A DNA stretch of 64,000 nucleotides. It comes from an uncultured Winogradskyella sp. (GTDB lineage Bacteria > Bacteroidota > Bacteroidia > Flavobacteriales > Flavobacteriaceae). Under the pieces are notes generated by a model, which saw nothing but the letters and a program-made list of their open reading frames with translations, ran no database searches and was not told the DNA's origin. A program made the position numbers and the translations under genes. The stretch lies in contig NZ_CANMJY010000001.1 in the NCBI RefSeq assembly GCF_947498345.1, forward strand, positions 558,001 through 622,000, given 5' to 3'. Shown piece after piece: positions 10,831 through 30,938 of this stretch. Positions within the stretch are counted from its first letter, which is position 1, and each line of letters opens with the position of its first letter.

Positions 10831-12240
10831 TTATTTCAGTATTGTGTACCCATCTTTGATATAAAAAAATACGAAGAAGCCAATTGAAATTATCATATAG
10901 ATTATAGTAAATAAGACCTCTTGGATATAATATGTATTTATAAAATAAGAGCCTAAAATAAATATTAGGATATAGACAAGTGTCTTTTTATTTGGTAATA
11001 AATTCACTTTCTTAAAAAGAAAGTAAGTAAACATAGCAATGTTAATCACATAAGATATAGATAGAGCATAAAGTGCTCCGTATAATTTATATTTTGGGAT
11101 AAGAAATATCATAAGTAATATCATAATTATTACTTTGATAAAAGTTACTGAAGACAGTTTAAGAGATTCTTTATAATAGACCAAAAGAAGACCATAAAAT
11201 CTCACAGGTATAACCAGTAAAAACACAATCGAACCAGTGAAGATGTAATCTTTAATTACCAGATATTCAGTATTTTTAATAATATACTCTAAATTATATC
11301 CCAAAGTATTTACTAGAGTAAGAACAAGAATGCCAAAACCAATGTAAAGATTAAAATATTTATTTACCGTTGCTTTTCCTTCCTTTAAATCCCTATATAC
11401 AAAAGGTCTTATGCCATCGTCTACTGCATTTAGAGATATTATAAGTAAGCCTAATAACTTTATTAATAAAGTATATAAACCAACACTTTTTAATCCAAGA
11501 TTCAACTCAATTAAATATTTGTCTATTTGATTTTCGAAAGCAAAAAATAACAAAAAGGGTAATAATTTTAAACTATAGTTCAATGATGGGTATAGTAACT
11601 TTTTTTTAAGTTTAAATCTAAATAAATAAGTGTTTGAAATTGAAATTAAAACGAAGATTATAATATTAGGTATTAGAGCACCTAAGAGTAGTCCGTATGC
11701 TTTCAAATTATATTGAGTTACAAATATAATTTGAAAAAAAGCGGTTAAAATTATAAGACATAATGTATATCTAAGATAAATTTTGAGGTTAATTTCATTT
11801 TTTAGAAAAACAAAATAGAGCTTATTTATAACTTCAAAAAAGACAGATAATAAAGCTATTAGGCCATAATCATAAAACGATACTTCATTTGAAGTGAAAA
11901 TTAATTCATAGATATTATTTCCAAAAAGAATATGTATGCAGGTGATTAAAAAAAATGATAATAAATGAACTATAAATAAATTACTTAGATATTCGCGTAA
12001 CCGATCTTTTTTATTAAAATCGAAATAGAATGTATACAATGCATTTTTTAATCCTAAGGACCCAATTACTGCAATAATACCTGAATAGATTAATACAAGA
12101 GAAACTATTCCATAGTCTTCTGGACTTAAGTAGTTAAGAAATATTGGAAGTAGTAATAATGAAATACCAGATCTTAAAACAGAAAAGACACCAAATAGCA
12201 GTGTGGATTTAAAAGGATTTTTTGTTTTAAGAAAATTCAT
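10831..12240 (-). CDS. polysaccharide/lipid-linked oligosaccharide flippase (Wzx/MATE type)
   Basis: 469-residue integral membrane protein with about 12-14 hydrophobic segments. The opening has a positively charged entry followed by SVLRSGISLLLLPIFLNYLSPEDYGIVSL, the N-terminal block of the PST/MVF flippase family. It should move a lipid-linked product across the inner membrane. It is the last gene of the 11-gene leftward operon that starts with GTP cyclohydrolase II and begins 3 bases after the LTA-synthase-like gene. Its presence argues that the operon product is membrane-anchored and exposed outside the cytoplasm; that link is an inference. Confidence 0.85.
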   Translation of the reverse strand: MNFLKTKNPFKSTLLFGVFSVLRSGISLLLLPIFLNYLSPEDYGIVSLVLIYSGIIAVIGSLGLKNALYTFYFDFNKKDRLREYLSNLFIVHLLSFFLITCIHILFGNNIYELIFTSNEVSFYDYGLIALLSVFFEVINKLYFVFLKNEINLKIYLRYTLCLIILTAFFQIIFVTQYNLKAYGLLLGALIPNIIIFVLISISNTYLFRFKLKKKLLYPSLNYSLKLLPFLLFFAFENQIDKYLIELNLGLKSVGLYTLLIKLLGLLIISLNAVDDGIRPFVYRDLKEGKATVNKYFNLYIGFGILVLTLVNTLGYNLEYIIKNTEYLVIKDYIFTGSIVFLLVIPVRFYGLLLVYYKESLKLSSVTFIKVIIMILLMIFLIPKYKLYGALYALSISYVINIAMFTYFLFKKVNLLPNKKTLVYILIFILGSYFINTYYIQEVLFTIIYMIISIGFFVFFYIKDGYTILK

Positions 12241-12243
12241 AAG

Positions 12244-13947
12244 TTAATATAGATGTATACCGTCTTCAAAAATTGGGAGCTCTGCTTTTTTATTTTCACC
12301 ATAGACTTTATTTATAGCATAAAGAAATTTTGAAAAAAAAGATTCGTGTTTTTGTGTTTGCTGATTAGGAACTAAACCTTGAGTGAAATTAAACTCTTTA
12401 AATGCGTTTATAAAATCATTGTTTTTTGCAATCACATGTATTGGCGTAGACTTATCAATATCTGCAGGCGTTATAAATGGTGGCTGATGGTCACCAATTA
12501 AAACCATAATAGTGTTTTCTAAATCATTATTTAATAAAAACTTATGTATATAATCTAATTGATAGTGGATGGCAGTAAAATAATTTTTTAGATTATTCTT
12601 TTTTAAACCATCTGTTAGTTTAAAATCCTCTGTGTTATAATCCTCCCAATGATTCAATGTTTTTATGGGTGAAATATAATTATAGTGAGAATTTATAGTG
12701 CTTACACATAGAAAATATGGGGATGAATTTAATAAAGAGTGATAAGCATAATTAAGAGAGTATTCATCTGGTAAAGAAAATCTGTCTCCAAATATTGGTA
12801 CTCTATTACCTCTGTAATTAAAATCATCATATAACATTAAATGATCAAAAGGATAAGTGTTTTTTATTTTTTGCCAATCTACCTCGTTTTTATCATAGGA
12901 TAAGGTGGTGCTCATAGTTGTTTGGTAGCCAATATTGTCTAAAAATTTGGGTAATGACTCTAGATTTGAAGCATAATCTGTGTGGCTAAAAATAACTTCG
13001 TGTGCAGCAATATCTTTAACTTTAGCTCCAAATAAAATACTAGAATGGCTCAGCCATGACCCTCCTGATGATATAGGTGATTTACTTAGTGTACTAACTG
13101 TTTTATAGTTTTTGGTGTTTATTGATGTGTTAATATCATTTAATTTTTTTTTGATCTCTATTCCATATTTTTCATCAGATAAAGCGAAGCTTCCATAAGA
13201 TTCTAAAAAAATTAAAATAACATTAGGTGTATTTTTTAGTGTAATGTTTTTTGTGTAATTGTAGGGGGTATCATTATTTAGAGTTTTTAGTGATTGTTTT
13301 AGAGTTATACATTTTTTCAAATTAAAAATGAAATGTTTTATTAAAGAAAAACTCACACAGCTATGATATATACTATAGCTCACCTTTTTTATAGAATATA
13401 ATGATACAAGTATATTGATTATTAAAATGCTACTGAAAACCCATTTGCCTTTAATTTGCTTTGAATTATAGATTAAAATGTCAGATAAGCTATAACTTAA
13501 AAAAACAACTAAGGTCATACAAATAAGTATAGTTATAATTGCTACGGGAATCTTTTTTTTATATACCATGATTCCTGTTTTTGCAAAATCTATATCGTTT
13601 AAAAGCATTGGCTCCTTCTTAAAAATCTTTATAATAACAGAAATATAGGTTATGTATACAAAGGATAATGTAGTAACTATAATAAATGGTATTTTGAGAT
13701 AACTTGTATAGTTTTCATTAATTGTTAATAAAAGCAATGTGAGAATTTGTAGTTCAAAAATGAGTCTAAAAAAGTCGTCAGAATATCTTTGGTAAAGTAT
13801 TTTTTTTAAAAAGAAATAAGGGGTTTCATCAAAAAAAGATTTTTTAGGGTAATCAATCTTTGCAAATTGGCCAATAAGCCAATAAGGAATAAAAACTAAA
13901 AAATTGATTCCTAAAAAACTAAGTATAAAAATTAGGGTTGATGTCAT
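12244..13947 (-). CDS. LTA-synthase/sulfatase-like membrane transferase (alkaline phosphatase superfamily)
   Basis: 567 residues. Five hydrophobic segments (about 1-210) precede an extracytoplasmic catalytic domain. The domain begins NVILIFLESYGSF (metal-ligand Glu), has a Ser-rich nucleophile region SGGSWLSHSSILFG, and a C-terminal metal site MVLIGDHQPPF with the DH pair. This is the layout of enzymes that move phosphoglycerol or phosphoethanolamine from a phospholipid to a glycan. In the operon it follows a CDP-alcohol phosphotransferase and a glycosyltransferase, so it may transfer a lipid-derived head group; substrate unknown. Confidence 0.85.
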   Translation of the reverse strand: MTSTLIFILSFLGINFLVFIPYWLIGQFAKIDYPKKSFFDETPYFFLKKILYQRYSDDFFRLIFELQILTLLLLTINENYTSYLKIPFIIVTTLSFVYITYISVIIKIFKKEPMLLNDIDFAKTGIMVYKKKIPVAIITILICMTLVVFLSYSLSDILIYNSKQIKGKWVFSSILIINILVSLYSIKKVSYSIYHSCVSFSLIKHFIFNLKKCITLKQSLKTLNNDTPYNYTKNITLKNTPNVILIFLESYGSFALSDEKYGIEIKKKLNDINTSINTKNYKTVSTLSKSPISSGGSWLSHSSILFGAKVKDIAAHEVIFSHTDYASNLESLPKFLDNIGYQTTMSTTLSYDKNEVDWQKIKNTYPFDHLMLYDDFNYRGNRVPIFGDRFSLPDEYSLNYAYHSLLNSSPYFLCVSTINSHYNYISPIKTLNHWEDYNTEDFKLTDGLKKNNLKNYFTAIHYQLDYIHKFLLNNDLENTIMVLIGDHQPPFITPADIDKSTPIHVIAKNNDFINAFKEFNFTQGLVPNQQTQKHESFFSKFLYAINKVYGENKKAELPIFEDGIHLY

Positions 13948-13951
13948 TTTT

Positions 13952-14713
13952 CTATTTCTTTCTGTATTCTATTACACAATATTTCATCATATTTTTTTTA
14001 AAAAGTTGTTCTAAATACAAACCACCTCTCATAATTGGGGCAATCGTTAATATGGGTTTTAGAATGGTTAATATTAGAATATTAATGTTCAGTTTAAAAT
14101 AATTTTTAGTATTTAAATAAGGCGTAAGATCTTTTTTTATGGTAAAATCGGGAAAAAAATCATCCTTTTTAAGGATAACTTTTAGTGCCCAATCCTTAGC
14201 ATATTTATCTATAAGAGATGGGTAATTATTATTGATTAATAAATCATCAATAATTACCAGTTTTCCATGTGGTTTTAAAGCTTTCTTAAGTGATTTTAGT
14301 GTTTTTTGAATGTTTAAAGTATGCTTTACAGATTCAATAGCTAGTATAAAATCAAAGCTGTTAGGTTCTAAATTATCATATGATTTTTGTTGGAAACTAA
14401 CCAGGTTACTTATGCTAGCATTTTTAGCAAATGCTTTAGCTGTTTTTACTTCTTCATCACTAATACTTATACCTTTTACCTTACAAGAATAAAAATTAGC
14501 TAAGTATTGAGAACCATAACCAACACCACAACCTGCATCTAATATGGCTGCATTACTATTTATGGAGTAGGCCTTAGTGATCCATTCATAAATGTCATTA
14601 AAACCAAAGGTGTCAGATTTTAATTTCTTATGAATAGGATAAGGTGCTTTCTTATTTTTTCCTTCAAATAGAAATAATTGATTATATAATTTTTGTACTA
14701 TAGCTTCAGACAT
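13952..14713 (-). CDS. class I SAM-dependent methyltransferase
   Basis: 253 residues. SAM-binding motif I is ILDAGCGVGYGSQYLA (about residues 57-72), with the acidic residue after strand 2 replaced by VKGISISDEEV, and motif IV is FDFILAIESVKHT. The layout resembles small-molecule and lipid methyltransferases of the Ubi/sterol/CFA-like group (ISISDEEV is typical of that group). The start overlaps the upstream methyltransferase gene by 8 bases, indicating coupling. It is one of three methyltransferase-like genes in the operon. Confidence 0.87.
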   Translation of the reverse strand: MSEAIVQKLYNQLFLFEGKNKKAPYPIHKKLKSDTFGFNDIYEWITKAYSINSNAAILDAGCGVGYGSQYLANFYSCKVKGISISDEEVKTAKAFAKNASISNLVSFQQKSYDNLEPNSFDFILAIESVKHTLNIQKTLKSLKKALKPHGKLVIIDDLLINNNYPSLIDKYAKDWALKVILKKDDFFPDFTIKKDLTPYLNTKNYFKLNINILILTILKPILTIAPIMRGGLYLEQLFKKNMMKYCVIEYRKK

Positions 14714-15407
14714 CTTTTTTTAATAAAAAAATAAATTTCTCTGTTTTTGTAATAGGGTTGTTGTCATTAACCAATTGTTTATAGTTTATTTTCTTTAACC
14801 CGAATGATCTAAGTTTAAGCTTTTTAATGATGCTGTATTGGTCGGGATATACACCATCTATTTTATACCCAGCAGTTTTAAAAATTGTAGTCCATTCTTC
14901 TAGATTTTTAGCATCTTGATGTCCTTTTTTGTTTTTTAGATTTAATAAGGCTTTAATGTACTTCCAGCTATTGGCTTCAGAATTACGAACCAAAATACAG
15001 TAGTTGCAATCTTGCTTTCCTACTCTTTGCATTTCTTGCAATGCTAAGGGGATGTTTAGCATTCGCTCTAAAGAACCAATACAAGTCACCAGATCAAATG
15101 TTTTATCATTAAAAGGTAGCTCTTCAGCATTAGCAACCCTTGCATTAAAATCCGGAAATTTTTCTTTTATTTTTTCTATAGCTACACTAGAGATATCAAT
15201 GCCGTAACTGTCTAATCCGTATTCAGTGCTAGCTTCTAATAGCCTACCTAATCCGCAGGCAATATCGAGATATTTTTGACCTTCTTTAGCGCCTAATAAC
15301 TCTAAAAAAATGTAATATGCTTTTGTAGGTCTTAAATACCAGTTACCTCTTTTAGAATAGGTGCCGTTAAACCATTTTGTAACTTCTTGTTGCCTATTTG
15401 CTGTCAT
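14706..15407 (-). CDS. class I SAM-dependent methyltransferase
   Basis: 233 residues. Motif I is YLDIACGLGRLLEAS (about 45-59), followed by acidic motif II SYGIDISSVAIEK, motif post-II ANAEELPFNDKTFDLVTC and an alpha-helical C-terminus. The ubiE/Methyltransf_11 type is clear. It overlaps the upstream ICMT-like gene by 4 bases (ATGA type) and the downstream methyltransferase by 8, so the three are translated together. Substrate unknown; presumably an intermediate of the operon's pathway. Confidence 0.88.
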   Translation of the reverse strand: MTANRQQEVTKWFNGTYSKRGNWYLRPTKAYYIFLELLGAKEGQKYLDIACGLGRLLEASTEYGLDSYGIDISSVAIEKIKEKFPDFNARVANAEELPFNDKTFDLVTCIGSLERMLNIPLALQEMQRVGKQDCNYCILVRNSEANSWKYIKALLNLKNKKGHQDAKNLEEWTTIFKTAGYKIDGVYPDQYSIIKKLKLRSFGLKKINYKQLVNDNNPITKTEKFIFLLKKDV

Positions 15408-16009
15408 AAGTAACGTCTTGTTTTACTTTTATATAAGATATAGTCTTTTTTAAATTTTTTTTCTAAATATTCTTCTTCCATAATTATTCTAAAATGAATA
15501 CTAATAGCATAAGTGATGAAGCATACTATATATATTAGAGAAGGATAAATAAGGTTAAGGCCAATTAAACTAATGTATAGTCCTGTTTGGCAAGGATTTC
15601 TGGAGAATTTAAAAATACCTTCTGTTATTAAAACATTATTAATCCTTTTTCTTTTGGCTTGATGTATAAATAGAATATTAATAATCCTACCAACTATAAC
15701 TAAAACTACACCTAAATATGCCATACTACTGTTTGTATAAAGAGGCTCTAACATATCTAAATGATAAAGTAACGGTAATAGATATAATATATATGTGACT
15801 ATAAGAGGTAAAACAAAAACAATGATTTTTTTTGTTTTTGACCATTTGAAAATTTGTTCTGTTTTCTCAGAAAAATATTCAGTATCTCCATTATTTAAAG
15901 AAAATATTTTTTTTGTAGAAACTACGCTTGGGATATTTACATAAATAATTTCATATCCTAAAGAGATATAGAAAATAGCAAAACTTATATGTATTAATAG
16001 GTCTAGCAT
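15404..16009 (-). CDS. isoprenylcysteine carboxyl methyltransferase-like membrane protein
   Basis: 201 residues with five hydrophobic segments. The C-terminal half holds the ICMT/PEMT pattern: SRNPCQTGLYISLIG followed by RIIMEEEYLEKKFKKDYILY and a final basic RRYL, equivalent to the RHPxY...EExxLxxxFGxxYxxY signature of membrane methyltransferases that bind SAM at the cytoplasmic face. In this setting it is likely to methylate a lipid or membrane-bound intermediate. It overlaps both neighbours (1 base with the glycosyltransferase, 4 bases with the methyltransferase). Confidence 0.82.
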   Translation of the reverse strand: MLDLLIHISFAIFYISLGYEIIYVNIPSVVSTKKIFSLNNGDTEYFSEKTEQIFKWSKTKKIIVFVLPLIVTYILYLLPLLYHLDMLEPLYTNSSMAYLGVVLVIVGRIINILFIHQAKRKRINNVLITEGIFKFSRNPCQTGLYISLIGLNLIYPSLIYIVCFITYAISIHFRIIMEEEYLEKKFKKDYILYKSKTRRYL

Positions 16010-16944
16010 TAGCCCTTTAATAATGTTTGAAATTCGTAATTAACCTTATCCCAAGTTCTGTTGATAGGGAGTTGGGATATATTAAAATTATAATCCGCAA
16101 TTTTTCCTTCGTGTAAATCTTTTAGTACGGTTGAGAATTTTTCCATATTATGATTTTCTATACCAATGTAATTAGGATATTGGTTAAATAGATCTATATC
16201 ACCTGTAAGGAATGCTAAACATGGAGTGCCAACTGAAATAGCTTCAAAAATTGACATCCCAAAGGATTCGTACTTTGATAAACTTAAAAATAAATCTGCT
16301 GTAACAAGTTTTTTGTAAATCTCATCTTGACTAATATTAAAATAAAAATGGATACGGTTTTTTAAGCTCTTGTTTTTTAACGACTTGCATATAGATTTAG
16401 CATAATTAGGTTCTATGGTGTTATTTCCAATAATATGTATTATAATATTGGATTTGTTGATATTTTTTAAAATAGGTATTAACCACTCATAACGTTTCCT
16501 CTCTATGAAATTAGCATTAATAACTATGTTAGTGATCTTGATACTGTGGTTATTTTTAGCCTTCCAGTGATTAGGTATGCCTGGCCTTATAACAAAGATA
16601 TTGTCGTTACTGAGTTTCCATTTTGCCATCAATTCTTGTTTTATGGGGTTTCCTGTTACAATAAATGAGGAGTTAGTTCTGTAGAAATCAATAATATTAG
16701 AAGGTAATTCAGGTATAAGGTGTATAAGAGCTATAATACGATGTGTAAGTTTTAGGGATTTGGTATCGATCTCTTCCATGCAAAGACTGTCAACAATAGT
16801 AATATCATAATTTTTATCTGAAGGAGTAAGGTTGTAATCTACTTCAAAATTATTTTGTCGTAAACTTTCAATAATTTGAATATTGTATATGTTTCCACCA
16901 GAAATAACGTTGAGAGGTATGCAATTTATAAATTGAATTTTCAT
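16009..16944 (-). CDS. GT4-type glycosyltransferase
   Basis: 311 residues with a GT-B fold. The C-terminal donor site carries LFLSLSKYESFGMSIFEAIS with the Glu-x7-Glu pattern (E in YESFG and E in FEAIS) of GT4 enzymes, then VGTPCLAF. The N-terminal acceptor domain is short (MKIQFINCIPLNVISGGNIY, with the G-rich loop). It starts 8 bases after the CDP-alcohol phosphotransferase gene. It probably adds a sugar to the lipid-linked or pyrimidine-derived intermediate; the sugar is unknown. Confidence 0.85.
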   Translation of the reverse strand: MKIQFINCIPLNVISGGNIYNIQIIESLRQNNFEVDYNLTPSDKNYDITIVDSLCMEEIDTKSLKLTHRIIALIHLIPELPSNIIDFYRTNSSFIVTGNPIKQELMAKWKLSNDNIFVIRPGIPNHWKAKNNHSIKITNIVINANFIERKRYEWLIPILKNINKSNIIIHIIGNNTIEPNYAKSICKSLKNKSLKNRIHFYFNISQDEIYKKLVTADLFLSLSKYESFGMSIFEAISVGTPCLAFLTGDIDLFNQYPNYIGIENHNMEKFSTVLKDLHEGKIADYNFNISQLPINRTWDKVNYEFQTLLKG

Positions 16945-16952
16945 CTACAGTA

Positions 16953-17630
16953 TCATTTATGGTATTGAATAATTCCTATTAAAAATGAAACCGCTATAGC
17001 CAATGATCCAATAAGTAAGATTAAGAATTGAATAGTGCCGCTAGTGATTAAACCAATTAATAAAATAATAAAATAACTGGCGGCTATTACGGTTGCATAT
17101 GTCTTTTTGTCTTCTTTGACGTCTGGTTTTGGAAAACAAAATGTGTATATTCTAAAAAGATACCTTAATGCTCCAGGGATTAAAATCCACCACGAGACAC
17201 CTCCGTATGTATAATAAAAATAGCACATTATTAGTACAAAAAACGCATCAATTTCCATGTCAAAATATTGACCAAAAAATGAGGATTCATTAAAATAACG
17301 CGCAGCAATTCCATCAAAAAAATCCAATATTACGGCTATACTTAGGCTATAAAAAAGTAAGTTGGTATCATTAAAGCTTATCAAATAAAAACTTAAAACA
17401 ATAATTAAAAATCTTACCAATGTTAAAGTATTCGCTATACCAAAAATTGGTCTTGTATTAAGTAATTTTTTACGATTTATAAAAATCAATGCTATTATGG
17501 ATATTGAAAACACGACCAGTAGTATGCTTAATTGCTTACTAACTAAAGCTATGATTAAAGCAGTGGTCATTGCAAAAGCATTGTAAATACTCCAGGTTTC
17601 AATATGTTTATCACTCAATATATCCATCAT
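16953..17630 (-). CDS. CDP-alcohol phosphatidyltransferase family protein
   Basis: 225 residues with six hydrophobic segments. The full family signature is present at residues 103-128: Asp103, Asp106-Gly107, Ala110-Arg111, then Gly120, Asp124 and Asp128, matching DxxDGxxARx8GxxxDxxxD. The family joins a CDP-activated alcohol to a second alcohol, releasing CMP, as in phospholipid and di-myo-inositol-phosphate synthesis. No matching cytidylyltransferase is in the operon, so the CDP donor may come from general lipid metabolism (CDP-diacylglycerol). Three bases separate it from the PTPS-like gene. Confidence 0.92.
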   Translation of the reverse strand: MMDILSDKHIETWSIYNAFAMTTALIIALVSKQLSILLVVFSISIIALIFINRKKLLNTRPIFGIANTLTLVRFLIIVLSFYLISFNDTNLLFYSLSIAVILDFFDGIAARYFNESSFFGQYFDMEIDAFFVLIMCYFYYTYGGVSWWILIPGALRYLFRIYTFCFPKPDVKEDKKTYATVIAASYFIILLIGLITSGTIQFLILLIGSLAIAVSFLIGIIQYHK

Positions 17631-17633
17631 AGT

Positions 17634-18008
17634 TTATTTACCAGAGTAGCTTGCCCAAGCATCATGTGTTTCACCTAAGCAGACGCTTATTTGCCCTTCA
17701 AAAAACGCATTGACCTTTTCTTTTATGCTATCATGTATATATTTGGCCATAAATTCAGTTGTAGTTAGTTTATCCTTAAACTGTGGCAATTCATCCAAAT
17801 TTTTATAATTTAAATGACTTAAAACCTCACTAGTCACTTCCTTGGCTTTACCTATATCTATGACCACATTGTGGGCATCTATATCTTTAGAATAAAATGT
17901 AACATCCACTACATATGTAGCGCCATGCATATTTTGAGCCGGACCAAAAAAAGGATGTGGTAGAGAATGTGCTATCATTATAGAATTTCTAACTTTTACA
18001 GTATACAT
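17634..18008 (-). CDS. 6-pyruvoyl-tetrahydropterin synthase/QueD homologue with altered active site
   Basis: 124 residues, the length of a single T-fold subunit. Family features: AHSLPH (His14) and HGATYVVDV (His28) in the zinc region, VVIDIGKAKEV, the KNLDELPQF stretch and a C-terminal ETHDAWASY whose Glu113 matches the pterin-anchoring Glu. Key residues differ. The third zinc His of HGH is Ala30, the Asp-His catalytic pair of LDHKNLD is Asn67-Tyr68, and no Cys occurs at the catalytic Cys position (GPAQNMHG). The pterin/pyrimidine-binding side is kept while the usual chemistry is probably lost or changed. Encoded between the dehydrogenase and CDP-alcohol phosphotransferase genes with 3-base gaps. 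Confidence 0.85.
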   Translation of the reverse strand: MYTVKVRNSIMIAHSLPHPFFGPAQNMHGATYVVDVTFYSKDIDAHNVVIDIGKAKEVTSEVLSHLNYKNLDELPQFKDKLTTTEFMAKYIHDSIKEKVNAFFEGQISVCLGETHDAWASYSGK

Positions 18009-18011
18009 ATT

Positions 18012-18947
18012 TTAATATTTTATGAGATAAATAAGACCATTTGAAACATCGTTATTTCGTAAGGCATTAAAAAAAGCAGGGGCATCTTCAAAAGGAATTA
18101 TGGTGGTAATCAATTTATCAAATATATTATGCCTTAAAATATCTACTGCTAACAACTTACGTTTGTAATAATCAAATTCCTTGCGTTTGCGTATTGGAAT
18201 TCTTGAAACTTGACTAGCAATTAATCGCAGTCTGTTTTTATGAAAATTCTCACCAAACTTCACAGTTGTTTTCGATGTGCCGTACCAACTTAATTCTATA
18301 ATTTGCCCTTCTTCATTTGTATTATCAATACAAAATTGGAGCGCTTCTTCATTGGCAGCAGTATTAAAAATGATATCAAAACTACCGTTACCTTCATAGA
18401 TTTCAAAACCTAATTCTGATGCCTTTAGTTTTCTCCACAAATTAACTTCTATGATCTTTACGTTTAAGTTATAATGATATTTCAATGTAACTGCTAATAA
18501 TGATCCTATATTACCAAAACCGCTAATTGCTATAGTTTTGTCTTGGTCTATATCACTATCCCATATAGCATTTATAACCGTTTCCAGATTACTAATAAGT
18601 GGTATGCGTTTTAACGGAAGATCTTGACATGCATTAAAAATTGAAGGTGCATCAACTATACAGTTATTTTGGTGAGGATGCATAAGATGAACTTTTTCAC
18701 CATTTTCTATAATACCAGATAAGGCATAACCGTATTTTATAGGTAAATTGAAGCTACCTTCCATATAAGGAATAGTCATGTAATTCTGAATAGTTTTGGG
18801 AACCCTTTTATTTAATACTAAGGATTCAGTCCCCAGGCTAATCATAGAGTATTTGCTCTCAACATAGTGCTTCAAAGATATATTGTTAGGTACCTTAGTA
18901 GATCTAATCTCAGTTTGTGTTGAAGTATGCCATAACGATCTAATCAT
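18012..18947 (-). CDS. MDR-family (zinc-type alcohol) dehydrogenase-like protein
   Basis: 311 residues. The fold is that of medium-chain dehydrogenases: a GroES-like N-terminal part with YGYALSGIIENGEKVHL, then a Rossmann domain with AISGFGNIGSLLAV (GxGxxG, about residues 140-153) and FDIIFNTAANEEAL. The four-Cys structural zinc lobe is absent, and the protein is shorter than typical alcohol dehydrogenases, as in BchC- or threonine-dehydrogenase-like relatives. It would oxidise or reduce a hydroxyl/keto group of the intermediate made by the RibA- and RibD-like enzymes; this is inferred from position. Start overlaps the RibD-like gene by 4 bases. Confidence 0.8.
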   Translation of the reverse strand: MIRSLWHTSTQTEIRSTKVPNNISLKHYVESKYSMISLGTESLVLNKRVPKTIQNYMTIPYMEGSFNLPIKYGYALSGIIENGEKVHLMHPHQNNCIVDAPSIFNACQDLPLKRIPLISNLETVINAIWDSDIDQDKTIAISGFGNIGSLLAVTLKYHYNLNVKIIEVNLWRKLKASELGFEIYEGNGSFDIIFNTAANEEALQFCIDNTNEEGQIIELSWYGTSKTTVKFGENFHKNRLRLIASQVSRIPIRKRKEFDYYKRKLLAVDILRHNIFDKLITTIIPFEDAPAFFNALRNNDVSNGLIYLIKY

Positions 18948-19894
18948 ACCAAACCTGCTGTTATCATAAACGAATTACCTATCTGCGTTACATACATGTT
19001 TTTAAGTTTATGAGTTTCATTTACAAGATTTACTGCTGGTAATTTTACAGCTTTAATACCACTTCCAAATAGCATTGGGGAAATATGAAATTGAATGGTC
19101 TTAGCGAATTTGGTTTCGATAAATGTACTTAGAGTAGTGCCACCACCTTCAATTAGTATGGATGTTATGTTTTCATCTTTGCATTTTTGAAGAAGATCTA
19201 ATATTTTATCTTTTTTGGATTTTCCTTTAAACGATATAATTTTATCGAAATGATTGGTGTAATCGTCATAACTATACTCTAGATCTCTAAGTAAATAAGT
19301 TTTACAATTAGCAATCTTTTTTAGTGAAGATAAATTTTTACACTTGTTTGACAGAATTAATCTTTTAGGATTATCTCCTTTTACATGTCTAACATTTAGT
19401 GAGGGTTTATCGTTTAAAACGGTTTTTCCTCCTACTAAAACGCTATCAAAAAGAGCTCGTAATCTATGCGCATGAATTAAGTTTTCATCATTACCAATCC
19501 ACTGAGAAGAACCAGAGGTAGTTGCCAAATAACCATCAAGTGATGTTGCAGAATGAATGAATATATAGGGTAGATTTGTGTTGAGGTGGCATAATACACT
19601 CAATGGCCAATAATTTTGTAAGACAGCAAGCAATTCACTTGAAATATTTGTATAAACAAAAAACAAAAGTCCTTCAAAAGGAATTTTTATACGTCTGTAG
19701 CTTGATAAATTAGTGTTTTCAGAGAGCTCGCTGTTAGACTTTAGCAAAATAGCAGTGTAATTAGTATTAAGGTTTACAATACTATATATTTCAGAGAAAG
19801 ACTTGCCATTAAAAGCCCAACCCAAAATATTCTTAGTTATTGTTTTGTTCTTTAACTCCAGTAATTTTTGCCAAAGCGTATCATCTACTTTCAT
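18944..19894 (-). CDS. RibD C-terminal-type reductase with a novel N-terminal region
   Basis: 316 residues. From about residue 105 the protein is a RibD/DHFR-type reductase: PYIFIHSATSLDGYLAT, SSQWIGNDENLIHAHRLRAL, DSVLVGGKTVLNDKPSLNVR, NPKRLIL and ILIEGGGTTLSTFIE. Such domains reduce the ribosyl chain of 2,5-diamino-6-ribosylaminopyrimidinone phosphate to ribityl. The first 100 residues are not the RibD deaminase: no HAE or PCxxC zinc motif is present. The intermediate would therefore be reduced without deamination, as in archaeal and fungal enzymes. It overlaps ribA and the dehydrogenase gene by 4 bases each. Confidence 0.87.
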   Translation of the reverse strand: MKVDDTLWQKLLELKNKTITKNILGWAFNGKSFSEIYSIVNLNTNYTAILLKSNSELSENTNLSSYRRIKIPFEGLLFFVYTNISSELLAVLQNYWPLSVLCHLNTNLPYIFIHSATSLDGYLATTSGSSQWIGNDENLIHAHRLRALFDSVLVGGKTVLNDKPSLNVRHVKGDNPKRLILSNKCKNLSSLKKIANCKTYLLRDLEYSYDDYTNHFDKIISFKGKSKKDKILDLLQKCKDENITSILIEGGGTTLSTFIETKFAKTIQFHISPMLFGSGIKAVKLPAVNLVNETHKLKNMYVTQIGNSFMITAGLV

Positions 19895-20493
19895 AATTTT
19901 GTCAAAAAATGCCCGAAATGATCTTTTTTAGTTTTTAGATAACTGTAATTAGTTTCATTTGGATGGGATTCTATAGGTATTCTCTCAACAACATTAATTT
20001 TTTTATCATTGAAAAAATCCAATTTATCAGGATTATTAGTAAGTAATCTTATATTTTTTACATTAAAATAATCTAAAATTTTTATGGCATCGTTATATTG
20101 CCTTTGGTCTTCTTCAAAACCAAGCATTTTGTTGGCTTCTGCAGTATTATAACCCTCATCTTGCAAACAGTAGGCTTTTAACTTGTTAATAATACCAATA
20201 CCTCTGCCTTCTTGTCTTAGATATATTAAAATGCCCGAATGTTCTTGAATAAACTTTAACGAATGTTGTAATTGTTCACCACATTCACAACGTTTAGAGC
20301 CAAAGAGGTCGCCTGTCATACACTCGGAGTGAATTCTAACAGGTAAATTTTCACTCCAATTATGTTGATCTGTAAACAGCGCAATATGAGGCATTAAATC
20401 TTCAGTAGAATCTGTAAAGGTAGCTATGTTAAAATTACCATAAATGGTTTCCATATTTACCTTGCTTTGTAACTTCAAAATTTTGTCTTTCAT
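19891..20493 (-). CDS. ribA: GTP cyclohydrolase II (monofunctional RibA type)
   Basis: Opens GTP to 2,5-diamino-6-(5-phosphoribosylamino)pyrimidin-4(3H)-one, formate and pyrophosphate. At 200 residues it has the full set of features: RIHSECMTGDLFGSKRCECG with zinc Cys58, Cys69 and Cys71, YLRQEGRGIGI (about 91-101), the IKxx-type NTAEANKMLGF and LLTNNPDKLDFF. It lacks the DHBP-synthase (RibB) half that housekeeping RibBA of this phylum usually carries, so it is probably a pathway-specific paralogue (inference). First gene of the 11-gene leftward operon. No FMN riboswitch is seen upstream. Confidence 0.95.
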   Translation of the reverse strand: MKDKILKLQSKVNMETIYGNFNIATFTDSTEDLMPHIALFTDQHNWSENLPVRIHSECMTGDLFGSKRCECGEQLQHSLKFIQEHSGILIYLRQEGRGIGIINKLKAYCLQDEGYNTAEANKMLGFEEDQRQYNDAIKILDYFNVKNIRLLTNNPDKLDFFNDKKINVVERIPIESHPNETNYSYLKTKKDHFGHFLTKL

Positions 20494-20862: not shown

Positions 20863-20875
20863 GTGGAGTCGGAGG
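20863..20875. repeat. attL core, direct repeat copy
   Basis: GTGGAGTCGGAGG, identical and in the same orientation as 30975-30987, where it forms the tmRNA 3' acceptor-stem end. This copy has no tmRNA body next to it, as expected for the far junction of an element integrated into ssrA. Confidence 0.9.
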
Positions 20876-20995
20876 CTATTGAACTTATTAGTTGTTAATA
20901 ATTAAAAACAAACCTAATTTCCTTGTTATTTCTTCAAATATAGTGATTTTTTACTGTTTAATATAATTTTGAATTATATTTGAATATAATAAAAT

Positions 20996-21026
20996 TATCA
21001 ACCAAATTATCAACTATACTATCAAC
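20996..21026 (+). repeat. three TATCAAC repeats at 12-bp pitch, probable integrase arm sites (left end)
   Basis: TATCAAC occurs at 20996, 21008 and 21020, exactly 12 bases apart. The same three-copy, 12-bp array occurs near the other end at 30899-30929. Short phased direct repeats near both att cores are the expected arm-type binding sites of a lambda-like integrase. They overlap the first codons of the longest integrase ORF, which supports the ATG at 21034 as the real start. Confidence 0.75.
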
Positions 21027-21033
21027 CGGTAAT

Positions 21034-22299
21034 ATGAAGTACACATTCTTTCTCAAAGAACCGAATGGCAATAAAGAAAGTTTAATTCTCTTTTCATGTT
21101 ATTTCAGTTCTGAGAGTAAACAATTCAAATATTCTACAGGAGAAAAGATATTACCTAAGTTTTGGAGTTTTAAAAACAATAGACCAAAACTAAAAGGGAG
21201 GAAAGAAGATCGTAGCCAAAATGCCAACTCAATTAATATTCAGCTAGGACGTTATACAGAAGCTTTTATAAGTACTCTGGCACTACAAAGAAAACTTAAC
21301 GAACCATTAACTTCTGATATTCTTAAAAAAGAATTTGATGATACTTTTAAAAAAAGTAGAAAAGGGCGCAATGTTTTCTATGATGCTTACGATGAGTTCA
21401 TGAATGAAAAAATAAAAAGAAAGGAATGGAAGCCATCAACAATAAAACGATATAATAATATAAAAAACCACCTCTTGGCTTTTGAAAAGCAATCGTCATA
21501 TAAGCTCACATTTTCAAACATCAACGAAAAATTTTACACTGATTATACAGATTATTGCTATACAGAATTAGATCATGGGACTAATACATTTGCTAGAAAT
21601 GTTGGGTTGTTCAAAACTTTTATGTATTGGGCTTATAGAAAAAATCACACATATAATGATAACTTTAGATACTTTAAAAAGCCAGAACGTGTAATCACTC
21701 AAGAAGTAGCATTAAACCTTAGTCAAATAAAAAAAATATTTGATTTTAATACTAAATCAAAATCATTGGAAAAGGTTAGGGATGTTTTTGTTTTTCAATG
21801 CCTAACTGGTTTAAGGTACGGTGAATTGGCATTAGTAAATAAAAGAACGGTTATTAATGACGTCTTGATAATTAAAGAAGATAAAGATGTTACTAAAGAA
21901 GCTAGGGAGATTCCGTTGTTTGAAATTACGAAGTACATTTTGAAAAAGTACAATTATAGTTTACCAATAATTTCTAATCAAAAACAGAATGAATTAATCA
22001 AGCAAGTGTTTATGAATGCTGAATTTGATTTTGATGTAGAATATACCAGGAATAAGAATAAACAAAAAGAGATTATTGTAAAACCATTCTTTAATAGGAT
22101 ATCTACGCATACTGCAAGGCGAAGTTTTATAACGATAATGAAAAAGAAAGGCATAGCCGATAAAACAATCATGAAAATGACAGGTCATCGAGACTTAAAA
22201 ACTTTTACCAGTTATTACAAAGTTGATACTGAAGCCAAAATAGATGCGATGAAATTGGCCTTTGGTAGTATGGAATTGCCTAAACTCAAAAAAGCTTAA
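21034..22299 (+). CDS. int: tyrosine recombinase (integrase)
   Basis: 421 residues from the ATG at 21034. The frame is open to 20980, but that extension (MNIIKLSTKLSTILSTGN) merely translates the TATCAAC repeats. The protein has an N-terminal arm-binding domain, a SAM-like core-binding domain (NVFYDAYDEFMNEKI... to about residue 215) and a catalytic domain with Arg in LTGLRYGELA (about 260), HTARRSFITIM (about 358) and GHRDLKTFTSYYKVD with the nucleophilic Tyr (about 393). It resembles Bacteroidota phage/ICE integrases and should catalyse recombination at the 13-bp ssrA core. Confidence 0.95.
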   Translation: MKYTFFLKEPNGNKESLILFSCYFSSESKQFKYSTGEKILPKFWSFKNNRPKLKGRKEDRSQNANSINIQLGRYTEAFISTLALQRKLNEPLTSDILKKEFDDTFKKSRKGRNVFYDAYDEFMNEKIKRKEWKPSTIKRYNNIKNHLLAFEKQSSYKLTFSNINEKFYTDYTDYCYTELDHGTNTFARNVGLFKTFMYWAYRKNHTYNDNFRYFKKPERVITQEVALNLSQIKKIFDFNTKSKSLEKVRDVFVFQCLTGLRYGELALVNKRTVINDVLIIKEDKDVTKEAREIPLFEITKYILKKYNYSLPIISNQKQNELIKQVFMNAEFDFDVEYTRNKNKQKEIIVKPFFNRISTHTARRSFITIMKKKGIADKTIMKMTGHRDLKTFTSYYKVDTEAKIDAMKLAFGSMELPKLKKA

Positions 22300-22302
22300 T
22301 AT

Positions 22303-23289
22303 ATGAATGAAATCAAGTTTTTCGGTGTTTTGCAAAATTACAGTCTTGATATTTTAAACAAAGAAATAATAGAGATCCTACTTGATAAAAATGTTATAAG
22401 CAAAAGTACATTTCAAACAGAAGTTAATAAGTCATCAATTAAAGCTGAAGAATCTAAAAGTTTTGAATACTCTATTTTTTATGATAAGACTTCATATTTT
22501 ATTTCAAAAGAGTTTTATAAGGAATTATATTATTTGTTACAGTTCTGTGTCGAAAAACATCTTTCGGGTGGGTATACTCTAGAAATTAATTCTTTAGAGC
22601 ATAGTTTAAAGGGGTGTCTGAATAAAGATTCTAAAATCAAATATTTAGAAAAAAAATATTCTGAAATTTATAATGAAGATCAATTGGGATTTCCAGAGTA
22701 TATGGCGGATGATACTAATTACTATAATTGGGATACTTACTTTGATGTTCAAATTGGAAATTCTAATCAATTCTTAATTGATTATTTGACATCGAAATTT
22801 CAGTTTATTTCTTGTTTAACAGATCCAGATGAGATACAAATACGAGATTTGGATATTTCCAATTGCTTATGGGAAATTATTTTAAATAATGAACATGAAG
22901 AGCTAAAAGAATTTTTACATGAATGGTCTAATTGCTTTGATAAAAAATGTATTTTAGAATACATTAAAAGAGAAATTGACAATTTGAAGCTTAATTCACA
23001 TTCCAAAAATAAATTAAGTGCTTTGGAGATAGCTTATTATGCATACTACATGAAGGAGGCAAGAGAATCATTTACAGTCGAACAATTTCCCTCTGACGCA
23101 GCACATAAAGAACTTGGTGAAAGATTCAATACGAATTGGACTAACATTAAAAAAAACTATATAGAAATATCTACTAAAAAGAATCTTCGACTAAAAGCCA
23201 CTAGAAGAGATAAGATTTTAAATTGTAAAAAGTTTTTAAAACCTAGTGCACTTAATATAGCAAATAAAGAAATTAAAGGTATTTATTAA
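22303..23289 (+). CDS. element protein of unknown function (328 aa)
   Basis: Starts 3 bases after the integrase stop, so it is co-transcribed with it. No known motif is recognised in the first 230 residues, which are acidic with many aromatic residues. The last 90 residues are helical and basic: ALEIAYYAYYMKEARES, FPSDAAHKELGERFN and a Lys-rich tail, reminiscent of the C-terminal regions of proteins that often follow integrases in Bacteroidota elements (RteC-like), but this is weak. A DNA-binding or excision-control role is a guess. Confidence 0.7.
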   Translation: MNEIKFFGVLQNYSLDILNKEIIEILLDKNVISKSTFQTEVNKSSIKAEESKSFEYSIFYDKTSYFISKEFYKELYYLLQFCVEKHLSGGYTLEINSLEHSLKGCLNKDSKIKYLEKKYSEIYNEDQLGFPEYMADDTNYYNWDTYFDVQIGNSNQFLIDYLTSKFQFISCLTDPDEIQIRDLDISNCLWEIILNNEHEELKEFLHEWSNCFDKKCILEYIKREIDNLKLNSHSKNKLSALEIAYYAYYMKEARESFTVEQFPSDAAHKELGERFNTNWTNIKKNYIEISTKKNLRLKATRRDKILNCKKFLKPSALNIANKEIKGIY

Positions 23290-23303
23290 TGCTTTTTTTA
23301 TTC

Positions 23304-23354
23304 ATAGTACCTACTCCGTAGTTACTATAATGAATTGAATTTTTTAATTCAATT
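23304..23354. promoter_or_regulatory. two adjacent inverted repeats upstream of the excisionase-like gene
   Basis: First, ATAGTA(C)CTAC-TCC-GTAG(T)TACTAT at 23304-23328 (one mismatch per arm). Second, AATTGAATT-TTTT-AATTCAATT at 23333-23354. They fill the 100-base gap before the HTH gene and could be a terminator for the integrase pair plus an operator; both readings are open. Confidence 0.45.
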
Positions 23355-23389
23355 TAGTTTAGCGGTATTGTTAATTAAAACATTATCGC

Positions 23390-23677
23390 ATGAATAGTAT
23401 TGTTCAACTCCAAAATATTTCTAAATCTGAATTATTTGAACATTTAGAAAATCTCATTGATCGTAAATTAGAACCTTTCAATGCAATAAATAAAAATGAG
23501 AAATTGTCTGTACAAGAAGTTTCTGAAGAATTAGGAGTTACAGATCTCACAGTACATAATTACATCAAAAAGGGAATATTACCAGCTTTTAAAATAGGTC
23601 GTAGAGTTTTTATTAAACGTGTAGATCTTGATGATGCACTTAAAGAAGTGAAGTCATTAAGGTATCAAAGAAAATAA
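23390..23677 (+). CDS. excisionase-like helix-turn-helix protein
   Basis: 95 residues. The C-terminal 55 residues form a MerR-type winged helix as in the excisionase/HTH_17 family: LSVQEVSEELGVTDLTVHNY followed by IKKGILPAFKIGRRVFIKRVDLDDAL. An N-terminal helix (residues 8-30) may mediate dimerisation. In this setting it is probably the recombination directionality factor or a control protein for the replication gene that follows. A strong terminator lies 6 bases after its stop. Confidence 0.85.
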   Translation: MNSIVQLQNISKSELFEHLENLIDRKLEPFNAINKNEKLSVQEVSEELGVTDLTVHNYIKKGILPAFKIGRRVFIKRVDLDDALKEVKSLRYQRK

Positions 23678-23683
23678 AAAGAG

Positions 23684-23716
23684 AAACCCTATAGCATTAC
23701 CAGTACTATAGGGTTT
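23684..23716 (+). terminator. rho-independent terminator after the HTH gene
   Basis: Perfect 11-bp stem AAACCCTATAG / CTATAGGGTTT with an 11-base loop, followed by a short T-run. It separates the integration/control genes from the helicase gene. Confidence 0.8.
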
Positions 23717-23747
23717 TAATATTGTTTATTATAACAGCAACAAACAG

Positions 23748-25214
23748 ATGCAAGATAACAAAAAAATAGCCACTACAGGCTTTAATAATTCTAGTGATAC
23801 CAGAGTAGTTTATTTGGATAGCGATAAAGACTTAATTCATAGCGAAATTATAAAATCTGGTTCTCGAGTTATTACTTTTGAACATACCTTAATTTTAAGT
23901 TTTCTACATGAAAATGGATTTAGAAATTATCGAGAACAGCTAATCCGAGTTATAGATAATGTTGGTTCAGAGGTCACAAAAGAATCAATTTTTAAATTTC
24001 TTTTAAGTCATGTAGAATCCTTTGACGATAATCAGTTAATTAATGCTTATTATAAGCAAGGTGAATCTTTAATCTTAAAAAACAATGGGCTTATCCACGG
24101 TATCAAAGATGTTGAGTTTGAGCCTCTAAAAGATGTTGTAGATATTGGTTATATAGCTTATTTAAATGGTGTAGTGAAAGTCACTAAAAAGGATGTTATT
24201 ATAATACCATATGTGGATCTTAAAAATTTTGTATGGCAAAATCATATAATAAATAGGTGTTTTTCTCTTATTGAGTGCTATGAAGATAGTCCAAATGTTT
24301 ATAATAAATGTCTTCGAAACTCAACAAATAATGAAGAACATTATAAGAGTATTATTTCTGCAATTGGAAATTTGATACACAAATATAAAGACCAAAGATT
24401 AACAAAGGCAATAATCATTAATGATGAGAACCTTTCTGAAAAAGATGAGCAAGGTGGAAGTGGTAAAGGTTTAATAGTAAAATCCGTTAGTAAAATCCGA
24501 CCTACTTTAATCATCAATGGTAAGAATGCTGATCCATCCAGGAATCGTTTTTTTCTACAAGGTGTAACGAGTACGACTTGTGTAATATCAATAGATGATC
24601 CACCTAGAAATGTGATTTTTGATGATTATTTTTCTCTTTTAACAGATGAAATGACAGTTGAGAAAAAGCATAAAGGAGCATTAATTATACCTTATAAAGA
24701 AAGCCCAAAGTTTGCTTTTACTACAAACTATACTATAAAAGGGAGCTCTTCAAGTCATAAAAGGAGAAGGTTCGATATTTTTCTAAACAGTTTCTATAAT
24801 TCAGATCATACACCTTCAAATGATTTTCATCATGAATTTTTCTATGACTGGGATGATAACGAATGGTCCAAATTTGATTTTTTCATGTCGCTCTGTCTTC
24901 AAACGTTTTTAAAAGAGGGATTAATAGTTTATAATAATGAAGAGCTTATACTCAAAAAGCTTAAAAATGAGACTTCAGCAGATTTCTTTGAACTGATGGA
25001 AGTTGATTACACTTCCATGACAAAATATTCTTTACCAGACATGAGATCTAAGCTAATAAATATTTATGGTGATAAATACCTTTTTTTAAACAAGGAGACT
25101 TCTAGACTTATGGAGTGGGTAGAAAAATATAGTGCTTACAAAGGCTATGTTTTTAGTAAAGGTAGAGCTAGTTATGGGATGTGGTTTTCTTTTTCATTAA
25201 AAGAAAAAGTGTAG
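23748..25214 (+). CDS. SF3-type helicase / primase-helicase family protein
   Basis: 488 residues. The C-terminal half is an AAA+ SF3 helicase like those of P4-type satellites: Walker A QGGSGKGLI (residues about 236-241), Walker B VISIDD (about 279-284), sensor motif FAFTTNY with the conserved Asn (about 324-329) and basic arginine-finger stretch SSSHKRRRFDIF. The first 200 residues have no clear primase catalytic motif. It is the likely replication initiator or helicase of the element. The stop codon lies inside a 14-bp inverted-repeat arm. Confidence 0.87.
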   Translation: MQDNKKIATTGFNNSSDTRVVYLDSDKDLIHSEIIKSGSRVITFEHTLILSFLHENGFRNYREQLIRVIDNVGSEVTKESIFKFLLSHVESFDDNQLINAYYKQGESLILKNNGLIHGIKDVEFEPLKDVVDIGYIAYLNGVVKVTKKDVIIIPYVDLKNFVWQNHIINRCFSLIECYEDSPNVYNKCLRNSTNNEEHYKSIISAIGNLIHKYKDQRLTKAIIINDENLSEKDEQGGSGKGLIVKSVSKIRPTLIINGKNADPSRNRFFLQGVTSTTCVISIDDPPRNVIFDDYFSLLTDEMTVEKKHKGALIIPYKESPKFAFTTNYTIKGSSSSHKRRRFDIFLNSFYNSDHTPSNDFHHEFFYDWDDNEWSKFDFFMSLCLQTFLKEGLIVYNNEELILKKLKNETSADFFELMEVDYTSMTKYSLPDMRSKLINIYGDKYLFLNKETSRLMEWVEKYSAYKGYVFSKGRASYGMWFSFSLKEKV

Positions 25215-25300
25215 CATGTGTAGTGTTTTTAAAAATAATGCGTATATGAAGTACATATATAGTTATATAGATTTTTTAAGATTTTGCTACACATGCTACA
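25210..25300. repeat. 14-bp perfect inverted repeat, 63-bp spacer, candidate origin or terminator
   Basis: TGTAGCATGTGTAG at 25210-25223 and its exact reverse complement CTACACATGCTACA at 25287-25300. The left arm includes the helicase stop codon. The spacer is AT-rich with GTATATG/TACATATATAG-like steps. Long inverted repeats next to an SF3 helicase gene are candidates for origin structure; a transcript-end stem is the alternative. Confidence 0.6.
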
Positions 25301-25326
25301 TGAAAACTTTCGAAGTATCATGATAT

Positions 25327-25683
25327 ATGGTGACTGAAAGGCAGAAATATAATAGAAATAAAGTATTCTTGGAGATAAAGAATGAACTAGATAAAATGTC
25401 AAAGTATGATTCGGAAATGGATAATGTGAGAGTTGATATTAAATTTAGAGAGAAAGAAGATCGTAGAGGATTTCTTTTTTATATATTCTTACGTGATTAT
25501 ACAGATTACAGCTCTCTAAAATATTACCTAAATACAGCATTTGATAGAGTTATAATAGCAGACAAGGAAGACAAATCTCTTACTAATTTAGACATAATGC
25601 TTAGAACTAGGTTAGGATCTGATAGAATTGGAAAAATCGTAAACATAGATTTAATTAAAAAAGAAATGAGGTGTGAAAATTAA
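25327..25683 (+). CDS. small charged protein of unknown function (118 aa)
   Basis: Highly charged, no signal peptide, no membrane segment. It begins with a Lys/Glu-rich helix, has a central beta-like FLFYIFLRDYTDY stretch, and ends basic. It lies between the helicase gene and the phased repeat array, so a replication accessory role is possible. No family recognised. Confidence 0.6.
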   Translation: MVTERQKYNRNKVFLEIKNELDKMSKYDSEMDNVRVDIKFREKEDRRGFLFYIFLRDYTDYSSLKYYLNTAFDRVIIADKEDKSLTNLDIMLRTRLGSDRIGKIVNIDLIKKEMRCEN

Positions 25684-25758
25684 TATTGTTGTTGAAATAG
25701 TTGTTATTCTTAAATCTCTTTGTCTATATGGATTTTTTAGCTGATTTTGGCATATTAA

Positions 25759-25835
25759 CAACCAAAAAACAACCAAAAAACAACCAAAAAACAACCAAAA
25801 AACAACCAAAAAATAACCAAAAAATAACCAAAAAA
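25759..25835. repeat. seven 11-bp tandem repeats with phased A-tracts (curved DNA / iterons)
   Basis: Five copies of CAACCAAAAAA followed by two of TAACCAAAAAA, each exactly 11 bp. A6 tracts spaced by about one helical turn should give strong intrinsic curvature. It lies in the 266-base gap between the small protein and the AlbA_2 gene, with the helicase gene upstream, so it is a candidate iteron origin. Confidence 0.85.
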
Positions 25836-25949
25836 TTATTGTTGTTGCTTATATAAGTGTATTTTTATTAGTGTTTATCATAGTGGGGATAAAGACATTG
25901 TTTTTGTTTTCTCGTTGTAGCCAATTAAACCAAATCACGAACTGAATTA

Positions 25950-26969: not shown

Positions 26970-26983
26970 CTGGTTACATCAAC

Positions 26984-27153
26984 GTGTATAAAACATAGCT
27001 AGTAAGTGCTAAACTGAAATGTTTGCGTTTACTTTCAAAAATCGCCAAATTTTTAATTTGGCTTTAAAGAGAAGAGTTAAAATAAAGTATAAAAATTCGG
27101 ATTTGTGTTTATCCGAAAAGTTAGTGTCTTTTTGCGCGCTACGTTTCATACAC
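26984..27153. repeat. long imperfect inverted repeat enclosing two hairpins between cargo genes
   Basis: Outer arms GTGTATAAAACATAGC (26984-26999) and GCTACGTTTCATACAC (27138-27153) pair at 14 of 16 positions. Inside are an 8-bp stem GCCAAATT-TTT-AATTTGGC (27044-27062) and a 7-bp stem TTCGGAT/ATCCGAA (27096-27117). The structure fills almost all of the 207-base gap between the AlbA_2 and HEPN genes. It resembles a folded recombination site or a structured leader. Confidence 0.6.
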
Positions 27154-27176
27154 AAATCCATTAGATTCAATACAGA

Positions 27177-28526: not shown

Positions 28527-28649
28527 AATAGTACAGCACTTAACGACGTGTTCCGTTCGTTTTAAATTACTGTCTTTCAGTTAAAAGAAAAGAACCATGC
28601 GAATTTTTCCGCAACAAAACCATACCCTAAACCGCTATCAAATATTATA

Positions 28650-29633: not shown

Positions 29634-29674
29634 CTTATCGAACGAAAATAAGATCAAAAACAATAAAGTATACA

Positions 29675-30143: not shown

Positions 30144-30148
30144 TGCGA

Positions 30149-30328: not shown

Positions 30329-30337
30329 ATTTTCTAA

Positions 30338-30866: not shown

Positions 30867-30898
30867 AATTTAAAATTTACATTAAAATGATTGGAAAT

Positions 30899-30929: not shown

Positions 30930-30938
30930 CAAAAAATA

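Follow-up and report, generated by a model that had tools for sequence, protein, structure and literature searches.

A putative biosynthetic operon joining riboflavin-type enzymes to lipid and glycan enzymes in an uncultured Winogradskyella

What does a flavobacterium make with an operon that starts with a GTP cyclohydrolase II and ends with a flippase? The question is raised by positions 10831–20493 of a 64,000-nucleotide stretch (here called the window) of contig NZ_CANMJY010000001.1 from an uncultured Winogradskyella sp. Eleven near-overlapping genes are read leftward there, and the gene calls and the Pfam and NCBIfam scans agreed with the initial annotation on this operon and its families. 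That the 11 genes and their recurring relatives form one pathway is well supported. We propose, with a probability of about 0.5, that the operon was acquired horizontally and belongs to a widespread biosynthetic pathway as yet uncharacterised, which would lead from GTP, in the seven steps described below, to a lipid-linked product on the outer face of the cell.

Gene order and recurrence of the gene set

All genes of the operon lie on the reverse strand. The first encodes RibA, a GTP cyclohydrolase II of 200 aa (19891–20493), and is followed by a RibD-type reductase domain protein of 316 aa (18944–19894, PF01872), a zinc-less MDR oxidoreductase (18012–18947), a PTPS-like T-fold protein of type A (17634–18008, PF01242), a CDP-alcohol phosphotransferase (CDPOH; 16953–17630, PF01066) and a GT4-type glycosyltransferase (16009–16944, PF00534). 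A PEMT/ICMT-type membrane methyltransferase (15404–16009, PF04191) and two class I SAM methyltransferases, MT2 (14706–15407) and MT1 (13952–14713; both PF08241), come next. An LTA-synthase-like membrane phosphotransferase of the alkaline phosphatase superfamily (12244–13947) and a Wzx-type flippase (10831–12240; PF13440 and PF01943) close the operon. Promoter and terminator scans of the operon gave no better signal than shuffled sequence.

An alignment of the PTPS-like protein was scanned against a species-genome collection of 84,980 species and returned at least 595 stretches, at least 588 of them relatives. Co-occurrence was counted in the best 80 of these at least 588 loci, which are the most window-like; many are related to each other, all carry type A by the design of the query, and the flanks end at about 10 kb. 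The open reading frames (ORFs) of the 80 loci were searched with family profiles whose seeds came from the window and the plasmid loci. The MDR gene was found in 75 loci and the GT4 gene in 76, followed by a common methyltransferase (59), RibD (41), RibA (38) and CDPOH (35). Cytochrome b561 (23), LPG_synthase_TM (22), LTAS/sulfatase (22), FkbM (21) and creatininase (13) genes also recurred. MT1 was detected in 5 loci and ICMT, MT2 and Wzx in 3 each, with the ICMT-type methyltransferase and MT2 together in 3/80; GTP cyclohydrolase IIa was detected in none. In the subset of 54 loci exceeding 20.2 kb, the counts were MDR (53), GT4 (53), the methyltransferase (42), RibA (29), RibD (29), CDPOH (27), LPG_synthase_TM (20), cytochrome b561 (20) and LTAS/sulfatase (19).

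The record titles of the loci name Bacteroidota, alpha-, beta- and gammaproteobacteria (Pseudomonadota), Actinomycetota, a planctomycete (Planctomycetota), a spirochaete (Spirochaetota) and a gemmatimonad (Gemmatimonadota). Overlapping gene sets were also seen in plasmid records of rhizobia, Methylosinus, Thiodictyon, Streptomyces, Microbacterium, Palleronia and another Rhodobacteraceae strain. The Methylosinus set is that of plasmid pOB3b1 of M. trichosporium OB3b (L017). In two haloarchaeal plasmid clusters, GTP cyclohydrolase IIa takes the place of RibA. An annotated PTPS gene stood beside the MDR gene in 10 of the 11 plasmid regions viewed, two of which are haloarchaeal. The gene set, whose PTPS-like member occurs in at least 588 contig stretches, spans six bacterial phyla, extends in part to haloarchaea and has no described product in the literature searched.

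Gene order was also retained. A metagenome-assembled genome of the Flavobacteriaceae (L046) carries ten genes in the order of the window, RibD-MDR-PTPS-CDPOH-GT4-ICMT-MT2-MT1-LTAS-flippase, and a Saprospiraceae locus (L047) shows the order RibA-RibD-MDR-PTPS-CDPOH. The ICMT-MT2-MT1-LTAS module recurs in permuted form in a gammaproteobacterium (L052) and a planctomycete (L059). One genome of the same class (G095) keeps both halves of the set on separate contigs, RibA-MDR (L027) on one and PTPS-GT4-methyltransferase (L151) on the other. In this split cluster, two genes (L027, 7296–8156 and 6497–7375) come after RibA-MDR, one sulfotransferase-like as judged by reading alone and one of FkbM type.

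Pairwise identities of the partner proteins covaried with those of the PTPS-like protein (Spearman 0.71 for MDR and for GT4 at 76 loci each, 0.64 for RibD at 40, 0.62 for RibA at 39 and 0.59 for CDPOH at 36), which is partly expected from the common ancestry of the hosts too. Eight neighbourhoods of QueD genes in the same genus were free of the partner families, a narrow control of one genus with 14–20 kb each. One RibBA neighbourhood of the same genus contained no partner family besides RibBA itself. A chance assembly of genes is ruled out by the recurrence in other phyla and the empty QueD neighbourhoods.

The initial annotation had proposed a dedicated pathway that joins riboflavin-type steps, the PTPS-like and MDR proteins, glycosyl-, methyl- and CDP-alcohol transferases and exporters, and had named conservation of the neighbourhood as its check. 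The conserved co-localisation, with MDR and GT4 near PTPS in nearly all 80 loci, the order of L046 and the spread across phyla, bears this out. As a pathway its general idea is well supported, and as to the product it is plausible. It also stated that no described pathway with this set was known to it. The open-access literature searched contained no description of such a cluster or pathway; parts of it are reportedly touched on in published work on the Streptomyces coelicolor proteins SCO6650 and SCO6655.

From GTP to the PTPS-like protein

RibA matched PF00925 with 184.7 bits and scored above the curated cut-off of TIGR00505. It has the three zinc cysteines of GTP cyclohydrolase II and a Tyr that we take to be the equivalent of E. 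coli Tyr105. In step 1, RibA would open GTP to 2,5-diamino-6-ribosylamino-pyrimidinone phosphate. This Tyr completes the full reaction; Met at the same position leaves a formyl group, which is removed by a creatininase-type enzyme. Met was found in 4 loci, all of actinomycetes, and 4/4 carry a creatininase-family gene. A creatininase also stands alongside a Tyr-type RibA in eight loci, so that the link is one-sided, and co-variation of Met and creatininase as a general rule was rejected. In this one-sided form, the pattern fits a need for the deformylated diaminopyrimidine. Spoonamore et al. 2006, on the GTP cyclohydrolase II proteins of S. coelicolor, is cited in PMC3509567.

The RibD-type protein matched PF01872 with 107 bits over residues 109–308 only, and no deaminase domain was recognised by Pfam or NCBIfam. 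A loose deaminase motif was missing in 52 of the 53 RibD rows from clusters; one 380-aa ORF (L089) gave a loose match. With a reductase domain only, the 2-amino group of the pyrimidine would stay. In step 2, this protein would reduce the ribosyl to ribityl and omit the deamination that commits the compound to riboflavin. The archaeal and fungal riboflavin routes likewise carry out the reduction without prior deamination. The assignments of RibA and the RibD-type protein as the enzymes of steps 1 and 2 are well supported.

The operon resembles the riboflavin pathway in these two enzymes, but it adds MDR, PTPS-like, GT4, methyltransferase and CDP-alcohol transferase genes. RibB, RibH and RibE were not found among the 11 genes by Pfam and NCBIfam scans. 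A reserve riboflavin operon is ruled out by the unrecognised deaminase and the missing later riboflavin genes. The host genome has two further RibD_C matches and one RibBA elsewhere. The zinc-cysteine motif was not seen in the GTP cyclohydrolase II domain of this housekeeping RibBA (L133, 9627–10781), and RibBA-type matches of same-genus relatives had 19–26% identity to the window RibA. In haloarchaea, annotation of arfA/arfB riboflavin steps has been reported (PMC8305020). A cytochrome b561 gene recurs near the RibD-type gene in proteobacterial clusters (23/80 loci; L016, 14039–14566), hinting at a possible redox role.

The nearest chain in the PDB to the PTPS-like protein was 3d7j (104 bits; next chain 33 bits). 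This is SCO6650 of S. coelicolor, a member of the same family whose solved structure is filed under the name 'Uncharacterized protein'. The two proteins have FGPAQ and HGAT stretches in common. SCO6655 is reportedly a GTP cyclohydrolase II homologue from the same region of the S. coelicolor genome. The protein of the window resembles PTPS/COG0720 proteins in its T-fold match, the first two zinc histidines (H14 and H28) and the substrate Glu (Glu113), but has Ala30 in place of the third zinc histidine and Asn67 and Tyr68 at the catalytic Asp and His positions. Ala24 occupies what we take to be the catalytic Cys position of QueD. Ninety-seven PTPS rows were compared; type B rows below 60 bits were left out, and a few genes were counted twice under different locus ids. 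Ala replaced the third zinc histidine in 92/97 rows and Glu113 was kept in 97/97, while the catalytic Asp was kept in 3/97 and the catalytic His in 0/97. SCO6650 is similarly altered. The Glu of PTPS-fold proteins holds the 2-amino-4-oxo edge of the substrate.

The protein therefore lacks the full set of three zinc histidines and the catalytic Cys, Asp and His of 6-pyruvoyltetrahydropterin synthase and QueD, and it scored below the cut-offs of all three NCBIfam models matched. No queuosine, folate or biopterin genes were found among the 11 operon genes (Pfam and NCBIfam). A biopterin or queuosine operon is ruled out by the zinc and catalytic residues and the gene context. The plasmid records label this subfamily 6-carboxytetrahydropterin synthase with a note on queuosine. 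In an article on COG0720, three subfamilies with functions are distinguished (PTPS-I QueD, PTPS-II biopterin and PTPS-III folate), and members that cannot be classified are left as 'PTPS family' (PMC5041015). The identity of the product would settle the true role of the subfamily. A second PTPS-like type lies beside the same MDR family at L023 (10998–11369) and L028 (6136–6510).

MDR relatives in the plasmid records are labelled 'zinc-binding alcohol dehydrogenase'. No Cys was found in the invariant or near-invariant columns of 49 MDR rows, so that the catalytic zinc ligands (Cys, His/Glu, Cys) are lacking and the label is misleading. The nearest folds were polyol dehydrogenases, tied with other alcohol dehydrogenases. 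In step 3, the MDR enzyme would re-oxidise a ribityl hydroxyl, and the PTPS-like protein would close or reshape the ring to give a reduced pterin that carries a polyol side chain. If C2' is the position oxidised, condensation of the resulting ketone with the 5-amino group could yield a dihydroneopterin-type pterin, as we infer from established pterin chemistry.

Proposed decoration and lipid linkage, and the possible product

In step 4, GT4 and the methyltransferases would decorate the product of step 3. Known pterin glycoside pathways combine a pterin derived from GTP cyclohydrolase I with a pterin glycosyltransferase. In the operon, RibA was found and FolE was not matched by Pfam or NCBIfam.

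The CDPOH protein has the complete family motif, D-x2-DG-x2-AR-...-G-x3-D-x3-D, and D102, D105, G106, A109, R110, G119, D123 and D127 were invariant in 22/22 rows. Its closest solved relative is PgsA (7drj, profile match E 9.5e-11). It shares the motif with PgsA, PssA and PI synthase but reached the cut-off of none of the NCBIfam models that it matched. In step 5, CDPOH would link the product via phosphate to a diacylglycerol-type lipid, or to an archaeol-type lipid in haloarchaea. With CDPOH in about half of the loci at either flank length, the lipid link is common and not universal among them. This lends support to the lipid side of the head group suggested in the initial annotation, a pyrimidine- or pterin-derived one; the product, its ring system and its attachment to a lipid stay plausible proposals.

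The same counts suggest another arrangement, in which RibA, RibD, MDR, PTPS, GT4 and the methyltransferase make a methylated pterin or pyrimidine glycoside, soluble and secreted, on the model of limipterin and cyanopterin, and the role of CDPOH, the flippase and the LTAS-like enzyme is only to provide or modify a glycolipid of the cell surface in certain hosts. GT4 and the common methyltransferase are more constant near PTPS (76/80 and 59/80) than CDPOH (35/80), and G095 joins PTPS to GT4 and the methyltransferase alone. However, CDPOH, flippase-type (LPG_synthase_TM or Wzx) and LTAS/sulfatase genes each occur in at least three phyla, L046 with the same order included, and lipid and export genes may be missed where loci end at about 10 kb. 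We consider a soluble glycoside possible and somewhat doubtful.

The match to PgsA also bears on a product without a pterin ring. A polyol phosphate would result from the RibD-type reductase, and this end could serve as the acceptor of CDPOH like the glycerol phosphate of PgsA, with the PTPS-like and MDR proteins altering the side chain of a ribityl-diaminopyrimidine only. The missing zinc ligand of the type A protein agrees with this. Such diaminopyrimidines oxidise readily and the Glu of the T-fold pterin site is invariant in all 97 rows, and both points make a product of this kind unlikely.

Returning to the seven-step pathway, the flippase would turn the lipid-linked product outwards in step 6, and in step 7 the LTA-synthase-like enzyme would transfer or trim a phospho-linked group outside. 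The predicted model of this enzyme (pLDDT 80.7) has an LTA synthase-type fold with LtaS and LtaP as its best matches. E249, S297, H421, D486 and H487 were invariant in 18/18 rows, and we take them to be the likely equivalents of the metal and nucleophile residues of LtaS. Over the catalytic domain, identity to LtaS/LtaP and phosphoethanolamine transferases was 14–18%. These folds and PgsA would also agree with a logic like that of LTA synthesis, in which CDPOH makes a phosphatidylglycerol-type donor and the LTAS-like enzyme passes its glycerol phosphate to a pterin glycoside or glycan that has been exported. We regard this as quite improbable: BcsG, phosphoethanolamine transferases and sulfatases lie only about 1–4 Z units below LtaS and LtaP, and the transferred group is not singled out.

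Steps 3–7 and the product, with its ring closure and lipid link, are drawn from knowledge of the families. A more specific and rather unlikely version is that the operon makes lipids whose head group is a reduced, glycosylated pterin, by a second route from GTP to pterin that bypasses GTP cyclohydrolase I. This route would consist of cyclohydrolase II, ribityl reduction, MDR re-oxidation and T-fold closure without a full zinc site. The pathway product could be a new class of lipid or cofactor. A pterin lipid on the outer face, with cytochrome b561 nearby, could act as a lipid-anchored redox cofactor or, alternatively, as a light- or oxygen-sensitive surface group common to bacteria and haloarchaea.

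Several results weigh against the proposed pathway. Reduction and then re-oxidation of the sugar chain is roundabout chemistry. RibA, RibD and CDPOH each occur in no more than roughly one locus of two, RibA was not found in L046 (16.6 kb), the haloarchaeal locus L020, the exception among the plasmid regions, has no annotated PTPS, and 9/10 Arthrobacter/Pseudarthrobacter loci have little besides MDR-PTPS-GT4 inside 10 kb. The second PTPS type has the same context and keeps the zinc histidine pair (a haloarchaeon and some Bacteroidota). The eight Tyr-type loci with creatininase and the restriction of Met to actinomycetes also belong here, as do the choice of window-like, often related loci and the seeding of the profiles from them. 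In the phylum of the window, MDR was found in 10/395 genomes (E 1e-6) and type A PTPS in 2/395 (E 1e-20), the host included in both. On two Streptomyces plasmids viewed (L149, 10001–10426; L150, 10001–10399), type A PTPS also stands apart from the cluster. These lone genes lie near MEKHLA, cupin, MBL-fold and sigma-70 genes.

PADLOC gave no match for 10 proteins, 9 of them from the operon (all but the two class I methyltransferases), and an anti-phage system was rejected for these nine.

Rarity in the genus and the tmRNA hotspot

MDR was found in 0/36 same-genus and 0/23 same-order genomes, and the host genome was the single match of 60. No PTPS match rose above the level of QueD in the same 36 and 23 genomes, with 183 bits here and at most 43 elsewhere. 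RibA had some match in 34 of 39 other genomes searched, and a second, close RibA was present in 2 of 24 other same-genus genomes (G005 and G015). RibA was rejected as a genus-wide marker of the cluster, since the RibA-matching genomes all lack MDR. MDR as the sole probe of genome contigs gave 15 pattern matches and no relative. Viral contigs searched with two queries contained no relative, and a viral origin was rejected on this ground; three weak matches were in unannotated phage records.

The absence from these same-genus and same-order genomes and the nearby insertion hotspot indicate that the operon was probably acquired horizontally. The hotspot is a tmRNA gene (30975–31367, reverse strand, ARAGORN). 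In 4/8 relatives (L141, L142, L145 and L146), msrAB, tmRNA and ald are consecutive and the gap between msrB and tmRNA is 0.5 to 3.2 kb; the stretches of the other four (L143, L144, L147 and L148) gave no match to msrAB. In the window, 26.7 kb separate msrB (to 4287) from tmRNA (from 30975). The operon lies within this variable stretch, just outside an integrase-bearing element, and no vehicle is visible for the operon itself.

The element is approximately 10.1 kb in size (20876–30987), sits in the 3' end of the tmRNA and encodes a tyrosine integrase. Its left attachment site, outside the operon, consists of 13 bp (20863–20875, forward strand) that copy the 3' end of the tmRNA and exactly repeat 30975–30987, with 2 matches against 0.08 expected. 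The element carries a Schlafen/AlbA_2 gene (25950–26969) and an ApeA-type HEPN gene (27177–28526), the latter of a family known from anti-phage defence.

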